From positions 192,265-256,264 of the forward strand of contig NZ_AOIQ01000006.1 in the NCBI RefSeq assembly GCF_000337515.1: a stretch of 64,000 nt of DNA, in the 5' to 3' direction. A program made the translations under genes and the position numbers. This document shows, one piece after another, positions 40,353 to 44,070 of the stretch (the stretch's first letter is position 1; the number at the start of each line of letters is the position of its first letter). The stretch comes from Halovivax asiaticus JCM 14624 (lineage in GTDB: Archaea; Halobacteriota; Halobacteria; Halobacteriales; Natrialbaceae). The notes under the pieces were generated by a model. The model was given only the letters and a program-made list of their open reading frames with translations, ran no database searches and was not told where the DNA came from.

Positions 40353-40570
40353 CGACTGCAAACGGACAGCCCCGGTGAGACGGACAGAACTCGACCGAAC
40401 TGCTGATTCGGCCCTCGTTTTGCAACCCGTCTCGACGACGTGACCCACAGCGTAGCCCCATTCCGACAGTGACTGATCACTGCCAAGCACTCCGGACCGA
40501 TACATAGTCTCCGGATGGGACTGTTTCACGTCGGGGTCGAAGCGACGGGATCATACCACCCGATACCCAT

Positions 40571-40578
40571 ATTATAAA
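40571..40578 (+). promoter_or_regulatory. Promoter of the PhoX-type phosphatase gene
   Basis: ATTATAAA lies 35-42 nt before the ATG at 40613, followed by a second AT-rich stretch at 40583-40599. Together they make the most AT-rich 30 nt in this part of the window, as expected for a regulated gene. Confidence 0.55.
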
Positions 40579-40612: not shown

Positions 40613-43243
40613 ATGGTGAAATTCACCAGACGCAACCTGCTTGCATCGTCGACTGCGGCGGCACTAGGGGCGGGCGTCGTCGGCTCCGTCCAGGCCAGCG
40701 AGAAACCGGACGAACACGCGACGCCCGAGGCGCCGTACGTGAACGGCCGACTCACCCGATTCCTGACCACGGCCCGTGGCGCGGAGGTGACCGGCCCGTT
40801 CGTCTTCGACACCGGCGAACTGCTCTACAGCGTCCAGCACCCGAGCCGTGACAACCCGGCACCGTACGATCAGGCAGGTGTCGGCGTCTTCGAGGGCTTC
40901 CGGTTCGACTTCGATGGGGCGACGCCCGAATTCACGGAACTCGAACCGCCGCGATCGGACGCCGAGCGGGGACGTGTTCGATCCGCAGCCGGTGACTTCT
41001 CCTACCTCGTCCGGGAAGGAGAGGAGATCAACGGTGGCACCGAGCGATGGGGTCGCCCGCAGACGCCTGATGGAACGGACCTCTCGGACCTCGTCGGCGA
41101 GCGCTTCGAGGAGGTGGGCTACAATCCGGACATGAACTTCTTTGTACCGACCGACGACGATGGGATGGAGGGGTACCTCTTTACGAACAACGAGACCACG
41201 CCGGGAGCGATCTCGCGAACGCCGCTCAGCCGGGACGACGGCGGCGACTGGGAGGCCGACCTGGAGAACGCGATGGAACTCGAGAACACCGACGCCTTCC
41301 GCGACATCGGTGGGACGAAGATCAACTGCTACGGAGATCTTACTCCTTGGGAGACGCCACTCTCGGCGGAGGAAGACTACGGACACCCACGCGTCAACGG
41401 ACTCGCGACGGTCAGCGACATCGTGGATGCCGGCAGCGGCGTCGGCCTCCGCGGCGGGAGCGAGTTCTACAACCGCCCGAACCTGACCGACGTCGAATCG
41501 TCACTTGAGGACGTCTTCGGCGAAGACGCCTGGTCCCCGATGGGGCTGTGGGCCAACAGTGGCGTCGAACGGCTGGCGTACTACCTCGGCGCGGAGCCGA
41601 TCGACCGCACGGACGACGAGAACAGCGCGACGCCGATCGACGACAACTTCCCAAACCGCTACCGATACGGGAAGATCGTCGAGGTTACGAAGCCGACGGC
41701 CGACGAGCCAGTCCCCGTCAAACACCACGTCTTCGGCCGCGCCGCCTGGGAGTGTCCAGAGGTGCTGCCCGACGAGCGAACGGTCTACCTCGCCTCCGAC
41801 GGCGGCGCGAAGGGTATCTACAAGTTCGTCGCCGAGGAGCCCATCCCGAGTTACGACAGCCGGATGGACGTTCGCGGAACGCTGTACGCGGTGAAAGCGA
41901 CCGAGGTCGGCGAGGGGACCGTCGGCGAGACCGACCTCGACGTCGAGTGGCTCGAACTCGGCACGGCGAGCAACGCCGAGGTCGAGTCCTGGATCGCCGA
42001 CTACGACGACGTCACCCAGATAGACTACCTCGAGACCCACGCCGAAACCGACTGGGAGGAAGACCTCGAAGCGGCCCTCGCCGAGGCCGACGAGACCGTC
42101 GCGATCGAGGGCAACCAGGACTACATCACCGACGAGGAGATCGTCGAGTGGGCTAGCCAGTACGAAGCACGCGGGCCCGACGACGTCGACGAGGAACTCC
42201 GTCGCGTGCCGTTCCTCGAAACCCGCGCGGCAGCCAAAGAGATCGGGGCCAGCGTCGAGTTCAACAAAGCCGAAGGCATCGACTCCGTCGCCGACGCCGA
42301 ACCCGGCGACTTCGTCTACTTCGGCATCTCCTCGCTCAGCGGATACATGACCGACGACCGGGGCGAACTCCGATTCGACGAGGTTGACTCCGGGGTCGTC
42401 TATCGGGGCCGCCTCGACGAAAATTACGACGTCTCCCGACTGGAACCGGTCATCGTCGGGCCGAACGCGAGCGATCCTAGTTCCCTGCAGGACGTCTCGC
42501 TCATCAACGTCGACAACGTCTACGTGATGGACGATGGGCGCGTGCTGTGCTGTGAGGACAAGGGAAGCTTCGGCCGCTCGTACCCCAACGACGCGATGTG
42601 GGTCTACGAACCGCCGGCCGAACTCGACGTCGAGTCGCTGGCCCTGTCACACGGGTCGACGGGGACGCTCGACCTGCGCGTCTCCAACCTTCGCGACGGA
42701 CTCGCAGGTGGTCGACTCACGGTCTCGGTCTCGCACACCGACGTCGCATCGATCACCGATGCGACCTACACAGACGACGTCTCGCTCACCAGCGACCCGA
42801 AAATCGCCGCCGACGGAAGCGCCGTCGAGTTCCGGTTCGCCGACGTCGAAAACGAGATCGAACCGGGGACGAGCGAGGTGACCCTCGCCTCGATCGAGCT
42901 CGAGGCGACCGGCACTGGAACGACCGACGTGTCGGTCGACGTCCACGCGTTCGACGACGACGCGGGCCAGCCGGTCGAGCCGGCGCCCTACCCCGGCGTG
43001 GTCGTCACCGGACCGCCCGCGATCGGCGACGGCTCCGGCAGCGGCCGGGCGCCGACCGATCCCGACGACGATGGTCGCTTCGAGGACGTCAACGGGAACG
43101 GCCGCCTTGACTACGACGACGTGGTCACCCTGTTCGAACGACTCGACTCGGAGGCCGTGCAGCTCAACGCGGACGCGTTCGACTTCAACGACAACGGCCG
43201 GATCGATTACGACGACGTCGACGCACTCGCTGACGAACTGTGA
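40613..43243 (+). CDS. Secreted PhoX-type alkaline phosphatase with cohesin-like domain and dockerin
   Basis: The 876-residue exported protein has a Tat signal (FTRRNLLASSTAAALGAG). Residues about 40-665 match the PhoX/DUF839 family of Ca/Fe-dependent alkaline phosphatases, which release phosphate from organic esters outside the cell. Residues about 667-805 form a cohesin-like beta domain (GLAGGRLTVSVSHTDVAS, then DVENEIEPGTSEVTLASIE) that aligns with a domain in the next gene. The last 58 residues are a dockerin: two F-hand Ca loops, DVNGNGRLDYDD and DFNDNGRIDYDD. It overlaps the next gene by 4 nt (GTGA). PhoX activity is inferred; the C-terminal modules imply tethering to a cohesin partner. 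Confidence 0.85.
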   Translation: MVKFTRRNLLASSTAAALGAGVVGSVQASEKPDEHATPEAPYVNGRLTRFLTTARGAEVTGPFVFDTGELLYSVQHPSRDNPAPYDQAGVGVFEGFRFDFDGATPEFTELEPPRSDAERGRVRSAAGDFSYLVREGEEINGGTERWGRPQTPDGTDLSDLVGERFEEVGYNPDMNFFVPTDDDGMEGYLFTNNETTPGAISRTPLSRDDGGDWEADLENAMELENTDAFRDIGGTKINCYGDLTPWETPLSAEEDYGHPRVNGLATVSDIVDAGSGVGLRGGSEFYNRPNLTDVESSLEDVFGEDAWSPMGLWANSGVERLAYYLGAEPIDRTDDENSATPIDDNFPNRYRYGKIVEVTKPTADEPVPVKHHVFGRAAWECPEVLPDERTVYLASDGGAKGIYKFVAEEPIPSYDSRMDVRGTLYAVKATEVGEGTVGETDLDVEWLELGTASNAEVESWIADYDDVTQIDYLETHAETDWEEDLEAALAEADETVAIEGNQDYITDEEIVEWASQYEARGPDDVDEELRRVPFLETRAAAKEIGASVEFNKAEGIDSVADAEPGDFVYFGISSLSGYMTDDRGELRFDEVDSGVVYRGRLDENYDVSRLEPVIVGPNASDPSSLQDVSLINVDNVYVMDDGRVLCCEDKGSFGRSYPNDAMWVYEPPAELDVESLALSHGSTGTLDLRVSNLRDGLAGGRLTVSVSHTDVASITDATYTDDVSLTSDPKIAADGSAVEFRFADVENEIEPGTSEVTLASIELEATGTGTTDVSVDVHAFDDDAGQPVEPAPYPGVVVTGPPAIGDGSGSGRAPTDPDDDGRFEDVNGNGRLDYDDVVTLFERLDSEAVQLNADAFDFNDNGRIDYDDVDALADEL

Positions 43244-44070
43244 GCCCAGCGAGCCGACCGAACGACGGGACCGGGTGGCTCACGGAGTGCGAGCCAGCGA
43301 CGTGGTCGGACGAGCGTGGAGTACTGCCCCGGTTCGTCTCGATCGCTGCACTCGTCTGTCTCACGATGAGCGCAGTGGCCATTGGGGCCCCGGTCGACGC
43401 GGCAACGGTCGTCGACGAGCGCACGGACACTGCTGCCGTGGCGCACCTCGATCGGTCCGACACCGATCTGACGGCCGCGACCGCCACGCCCCAGGGAGAC
43501 GAGAGCGCGACAGCACAGATGGACGGACGCATCGAACTGGGTGACGCTCCCGTCGACCCCGGGGAGAACGCGTCGATTCCCCTCGTGTTGGGCGAGGCGC
43601 CGGCCGGGCTCGCCGGGTTCGAGGTGACGGTCTCCGTCGCGGACGAACACGTGGCGTCGATCGAGAGCGCGGCGTATCCGGACACGCTGGCCATGACGGA
43701 ACGCCCGATGGTGAGCACTGACGGACGATCGATCACGCTCGAAGCCGTCGATCTCGAAAACGAAATTACGGCCGGTGCGGCGGACGTCACGCTGGCGACG
43801 ATCGAGGTCTCGGGGAACGAAGTCGGCACTACAGCCGTTCGCGTGACGGATGCACGGCTCGACGCGGACGGTGGCACACCGATCGCAGTCGAACCCACAG
43901 CGGGGACGATCACCGTTGGGGACGGCACCGGCGAAAGCAGCTCGCCCGGCGGTGGCGACGCGGACGGGATCGGCTCAACCGTCAATGAGAAACTCCCCGG
44001 TTTCGGCGGCGTAGCCGCACTCGTGGCCCTCGGGTGGGTCGGGTGGCGACGACGGGTTCGGCCCACCTGA
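43240..44070 (+). CDS. Surface-anchored cohesin-like protein with PGF-CTERM signal
   Basis: Starting at GTG 43240, the 276-residue protein has an N-terminal hydrophobic segment (RFVSIAALVCLTMSAVAIGA) for export. A cohesin-like domain occupies about residues 92-228 (GLAGFEVTVSVADEHVAS, DLENEITAGAADVTLATIE), then a Gly/Ser-rich linker. The C-terminus is PGFGG, a hydrophobic helix and WRRR: the PGF-CTERM layout processed by archaeosortase A and lipid-anchored to the surface. It overlaps the PhoX gene by 4 nt, so the two products should be made together. The likely role is a surface receptor for the dockerin of its neighbour. An internal ATG at 43366 is a less likely start. Confidence 0.8.
   Translation: MSPASRPNDGTGWLTECEPATWSDERGVLPRFVSIAALVCLTMSAVAIGAPVDAATVVDERTDTAAVAHLDRSDTDLTAATATPQGDESATAQMDGRIELGDAPVDPGENASIPLVLGEAPAGLAGFEVTVSVADEHVASIESAAYPDTLAMTERPMVSTDGRSITLEAVDLENEITAGAADVTLATIEVSGNEVGTTAVRVTDARLDADGGTPIAVEPTAGTITVGDGTGESSSPGGGDADGIGSTVNEKLPGFGGVAALVALGWVGWRRRVRPT

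Follow-up and report, generated by a model that had tools for sequence, protein, structure and literature searches.

A closely related known system is that of Archaeoglobus fulgidus, in which an X-cohesin-dockerin protein adjoins a protein with a further cohesin. This pair was reportedly described in Bayer 1999, Haimovitz 2008 and Voronov-Goldman 2011, with 2xdh as its structure, and the title of the first report is said to call the modules an "enigmatic vestige". We know of no phosphatase cargo or phosphate regulon reported for the A. fulgidus pair. Binding has been reported for archaeal cohesin-dockerin pairs (PMC9012536, PMC9705933), and the A. fulgidus pair has been put to use for surface tethering in E. 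coli (PMC9705933). The combination of an X-cohesin-dockerin gene with a cohesin gene is also present, with other cargo, in other Halobacteriota, and is widespread in the phylum. An earlier interpretation of the locus studied here, made from the nucleotide sequence (the sequence-only reading), held that an operon of this kind built around a phosphatase had not been described. In the literature searched, we found nothing linking cohesin-dockerin modules to phosphatases or giving them this role in haloarchaea, and no cohesin-related paper naming AF2375. The gene pair is of a kind known in archaea from A. fulgidus, and its phosphatase-dedicated haloarchaeal version appears to be undescribed in that literature.

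The window, a 64,000-nucleotide stretch of the Halovivax asiaticus JCM 14624 genome, contains two forward-strand genes that we consider likely to form a phosphate-regulon surface-display cassette, in which the dockerin of an exported phosphatase would sit on an anchored cohesin, with possible daisy-chaining. Gene 1 (positions 40613-43243, 876 aa) encodes a PhoX-cohesin-dockerin protein and is kept in relatives. Gene 2 (43240-44070, 276 aa) has a GTG start and encodes an anchored cohesin that is 84% identical to its counterpart in a congener across residues 1-276. Among the named loci gathered with PhoX, that of Halovivax sp. KZCA124 is the nearest by identity (77%). The ORF calls reproduce the coordinates of the sequence-only reading and its 4-nt overlap between the genes, and its interpretation is supported by the present analysis, with binding, calcium dependence and chain assembly as predictions. 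The Tat signal region FTRRNLLASSTAAALGAG (40613-40700, forward strand) has a twin-arginine motif that can be read directly and is kept in relatives, and it has no lipobox cysteine. Residues 221-651 (41273-42565) match the PhoX catalytic domain PF05787 with 79.8 bits against a Pfam cut-off of 24 (E 3e-22). The family profile of this domain also finds the Pseudomonas fluorescens PhoX structures 3zwu/4amf in the PDB, as distant matches (E 2e-9). Cys239, in NCYGDLSPWETPLSAEE, aligns to the Cys/Glu active-site motif NCANGKTPWGTYLTCEE of 4amf and is invariant in the PhoX alignment of relatives. Gene 1 is a predicted Tat-exported PhoX-type alkaline phosphatase, with predicted phosphomonoesterase activity. 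Since it lacks a lipobox, the enzyme has no visible anchor unless it is docked. A 139-aa protein encoded at 39933-40352 matches no Pfam or NCBIfam family; in 81 of 84 loci a homologue of it is encoded no more than 1.5 kb from PhoX, whether PhoX has the tail described below or lacks it. It is an undescribed conserved PhoX companion.

Each of the two proteins contains one beta domain of the same kind. The cargo-borne domain, coh1, covers residues ~669-805 of gene 1 (42617-43027, forward strand), and the anchor-type domain, coh2, covers residues ~91-228 of gene 2 (43510-43923, forward strand). As the sequence-only reading had claimed, the two align with each other (38% identity over 120 ungapped residues, E 1e-21), and their family profiles match with a probability of 99.9 (E 8e-37). 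Models were computed with AlphaFold2 from alignments built from the window sequences and sequences of related loci, giving a pLDDT of 84 and a pTM of 0.62 for coh1 and a pLDDT of 90 (89.8) for coh2. In Foldseek comparisons with the PDB, the first 46 matches of coh1 and the first 50 of coh2 are cohesins, among them the Archaeoglobus cohesin 2xdh (E 2e-9 for coh1 and 4e-8 for coh2), and the TM-score normalised to the target is 0.7-0.8 for most single-domain cohesin matches. A CARDB/Ig fold for the two domains, which the sequence-only reading had named as a refutation of its view, was rejected by the fold search, and Pfam gave only sub-threshold Big_2/SrfB noise. In single-sequence searches, coh1 and coh2 of the window have no Pfam cohesin match above threshold, which counts against the display reading; PF00963 matches 5 of 42 coh1 orthologues (best 2.2e-6) and 3 of 37 coh2 orthologues (best 1.7e-3) at E<=1. 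Sequence-profile searches of the PDB with these domains did not find cohesins, so the case for cohesins rests on fold comparison. Given the cohesin matches of both confident models, the fold question is settled in favour of the cohesin beta-sandwich for the two modelled domains.

The C-terminus of gene 1 (residues 813-876, 43049-43240, forward strand) is a dockerin with two calcium loops, following the cohesin as the sequence-only reading had described. Loop 1, DVNGNGRLDYDD (43085-43120), and loop 2, DFNDNGRIDYDD (43181-43216), both read directly on the forward strand, follow the pattern DxNxNGxxDxxD, and 11 of 18 residues of the second repeat are the same as in the first. The Asp/Asn calcium ligands are invariant across 38 aligned dockerins, which thus contain the duplicated F-hand loop of type I dockerins (PF00404). 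An extra DxDxDG motif (DPDDDG, 43058-43075, forward strand) lies ahead of loop 1, with D4, D8 and G9 invariant and D6 near-invariant in the alignment. Dockerin_1 matches all 38 family dockerins (best 5e-7); the gene 1 dockerin itself scores 13-17.8 bits against the Pfam cut-off of 22.9, and those of three other loci (L175, L187, L188) score above it. The gene 2 protein has an N-terminal hydrophobic export segment (residues ~29-50, 43324-43389, forward strand, read directly), and an acidic linker connects coh2 to a C-terminal anchor (43996-44067, forward strand). The sequence-only reading had named this a PGF-CTERM anchor. A PGF-like motif, a TM helix and an arginine tail can indeed be recognized by eye, but the TIGR04126 score of 14.6 bits is below the curated cut-off of 24.5, so the name is correct only in part and the protein was not assigned to that family. 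The TM helix and arginine tail are present in most orthologues, and the distant homologues of gene 2 retain both with the PGF motif lost.

The H. asiaticus genome (99.3% complete) has a single dockerin and just two cohesins of this family, and all three lie in this operon, so that the dockerin can meet only coh1 or coh2. This inventory of two single cohesins and one dockerin differs from a cellulosome, with its multi-cohesin scaffoldin and dockerin-bearing carbohydrate enzymes. Among 392 genomes of the order, the gene 2 domain is found in 112 and the cohesin-dockerin tail in 149. The sequence-only reading had suggested a search for the same pair in other haloarchaea, and the pair proved to be conserved. 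In 80 named haloarchaeal loci, gathered with a PhoX alignment, the full tail is present on 47 PhoX genes, and for 42 of these the gene cluster includes an anchored cohesin (immediately next to PhoX in 41 cases, and in one case with PhoX as the first of a tandem pair), compared with 0 of 35 tailless PhoX genes (Fisher p 4e-18, with loci treated as independent and shared ancestry uncorrected). Some loci have tandem PhoX-cohesin-dockerin genes served by one anchor gene. Broken cassettes were also seen, with the anchored cohesin split into two ORFs (L068, 7200-8014) or PhoX split (L144, 3824-6603; Halostagnicola sp. A56). Haloarcula pellucida (L193:1975-11416, L113) has a PhoX-cohesin protein without a dockerin and no anchor cohesin, and elsewhere three multi-cohesin ORFs, two of them with a dockerin.

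The remaining five tail-bearing loci, from four genomes, have no adjacent coh2, which counts against the display reading, and a coh2-type cohesin was not found anywhere in these four genomes. The anchor is thus dispensable there, and coh1 is the sole candidate partner, which suggests that coh1 can receive a dockerin as well, or that the tail works otherwise. These genomes favour an alternative in which the dockerin pairs only with PhoX cohesins, in cis or between molecules, to give capped monomers or soluble homo-oligomers; in that case, the anchored cohesin would be a minor partner or serve something else. This alternative also draws on the separation of the cargo-borne and anchored cohesins into distinct clades, with 96 of 99 and 62 of 72 sequences, respectively, in pure clades. 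However, the anchored cohesin is tied to the tail, the H. asiaticus genome has no other family dockerin for its anchored cohesin, and the linker between coh1 and the dockerin is short in many orthologues, which disfavours binding in cis. We therefore regard PhoX-only pairing as unlikely, and docking on the anchored cohesin remains the preferred reading.

The same cohesin-dockerin tail is also attached, in other genomes, to PhoD phosphatases, 5'-nucleotidases, SNase-containing and choice_anch_I proteins, as well as to one GH5 enzyme and to PKD proteins, and a subtilase and a second GH5 enzyme have the dockerin alone. Some types of cargo, SNase-type proteins among them, come with an adjacent anchored cohesin of their own; the SNase domain proteins concerned, with DUF4350/GIFT-like domains, were found at four loci (L176, L178, L180, L071). 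This spread of cargo bears on the idea that the tail is a structural or calcium-storage module stabilising PhoX in brine, gene 2 being a duplicated domain without a docking role. PhoX enzymes need calcium, and three DxDxDG-type motifs are present in the dockerin, but unrelated enzymes bear the same tail, hosts of equal salinity often have PhoX paralogues without it, and the anchored gene is missing at every tailless locus, making this idea quite improbable. A role of the dockerin in binding substrate or envelope (polysaccharide or S-layer), such as the substrate-binding role proposed for haloarchaeal type I dockerins (PMC10963439, PMC13260240), is very improbable: the same operon encodes a cognate cohesin, cohesins are the classical partners of dockerins, and binding of archaeal pairs has been reported. 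One Haloplanus genome (G373) has four cohesin-dockerin proteins (PhoX, PhoD, 5'-nucleotidase and choice_anch_I) and a single anchored cohesin. The four dockerins are 60-84% identical to each other, and the cohesins, including that of the anchor, 26-47%. The four-to-one stoichiometry makes sense if the enzymes chain through their own cohesins, the alternative being competition for one anchor. Larger proteins with these modules were also noticed. One haloarchaeal protein combines a dockerin with five cohesins and, having two GH5-type dockerin proteins and a single-cohesin gene beside it (L181:5602-8700), looks like part of a real scaffoldin cluster, and another Halobacteriota genome (L228) encodes two very large cohesin-dockerin proteins (1743 and 2173 aa) near each other.

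The link to phosphate comes from the promoter. The phoX ATG is preceded, at a distance of 43 nt, by the rare element TATTATAAA (40570-40578, forward strand), which is the sole copy in the window, with 0.00 expected. Of 105 distinct phoX upstream regions, 65 contain TATTATAA, compared with 0.8 expected, and it lies exactly at -43 in 63 of 73 occurrences; it is also found upstream of some PhoD and choice_anch_I tail genes. In the H. asiaticus genome, TATTATAAA has four copies and the reversed control seven, so the genome-wide count is not above control. Another copy (L237:2040) is at -42 of a gene that matches PstS; a permease gene comes next, and a PhoU-like ORF lies further downstream (read by eye). 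As TATTATAAA is common to the phoX operon and pstS, the operon probably belongs to the phosphate regulon, and the sharing of the promoter suggests induction by phosphate limitation. We propose TATTATAAA as a candidate haloarchaeal phosphate-regulon promoter element, which may act as a specialised TATA region.

The display reading draws together the cohesin folds, the dockerin family matches, the exclusivity of the modules to a single operon and their co-occurrence across loci, as well as the separate cohesin clades, the tail on other enzymes, the Haloplanus stoichiometry, the element shared with pstS and the missing lipobox. In the proposed mechanism, Tat would export PhoX, already folded in the cytoplasm, in soluble form, and the gene 2 product would present its cohesin from the membrane. 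The C-terminal dockerin of PhoX, once charged with Ca2+, would then dock on this cohesin, keeping the phosphatase at the cell surface, where freed phosphate could be taken up by the Pst transporter and not lost. The coh1 domain would offer a second socket for more dockerin-bearing enzymes, PhoX in this genome and PhoD, 5'-nucleotidase or others where present. As a more tentative extension, haloarchaea could build a phosphate-starvation-induced multi-enzyme complex on their surface for scavenging phosphoesters, with phosphatases, nucleotidases and nucleases daisy-chained from one anchored cohesin in a cellulosome-like manner and with no scaffoldin.

So far, cohesin-dockerin pairs have had no clear purpose in archaea. 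An operon that combines a defined enzyme with two cohesins and one dockerin, has a promoter element in common with pst and is conserved in dozens of haloarchaeal species makes the question of purpose testable, in hosts that are culturable and partly tractable (Haloarcula, Natrinema, Halorubrum). If chains do form, they would represent a scaffoldin-free surface multi-enzyme complex dedicated to phosphorus and not carbon, and could supply salt-stable docking pairs.

Compared with known systems, the window shares with A. fulgidus the architecture of an X-cohesin-dockerin gene beside a cohesin gene. It differs in that the cargo is a PhoX-type phosphatase, that the pair extends across many haloarchaeal genera, and that its cohesins are only ~16% identical to 2xdh. 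With the type I clostridial cellulosome it has in common the folds, the duplicated calcium-loop dockerin and, as proposed here, the docking of an enzyme on a surface-bound cohesin; the cellulosome, however, combines a multi-cohesin scaffoldin with carbohydrate enzymes, whereas here the anchor and each enzyme bear a single cohesin. The bacterial PhoX of P. fluorescens belongs to the same catalytic domain family and has the conserved cysteine-containing motif, but its structures contain neither cohesin nor dockerin, and gene 1 has both. Archaeal cohesin-dockerin proteins are also found in ANME and methanogens (PMC9012536), and in other Halobacteriota some of them adjoin anchored cohesins. Their cargo consists of transport-binding proteins and PKD, propeller or S-layer domains, whereas that of the window is a phosphatase.
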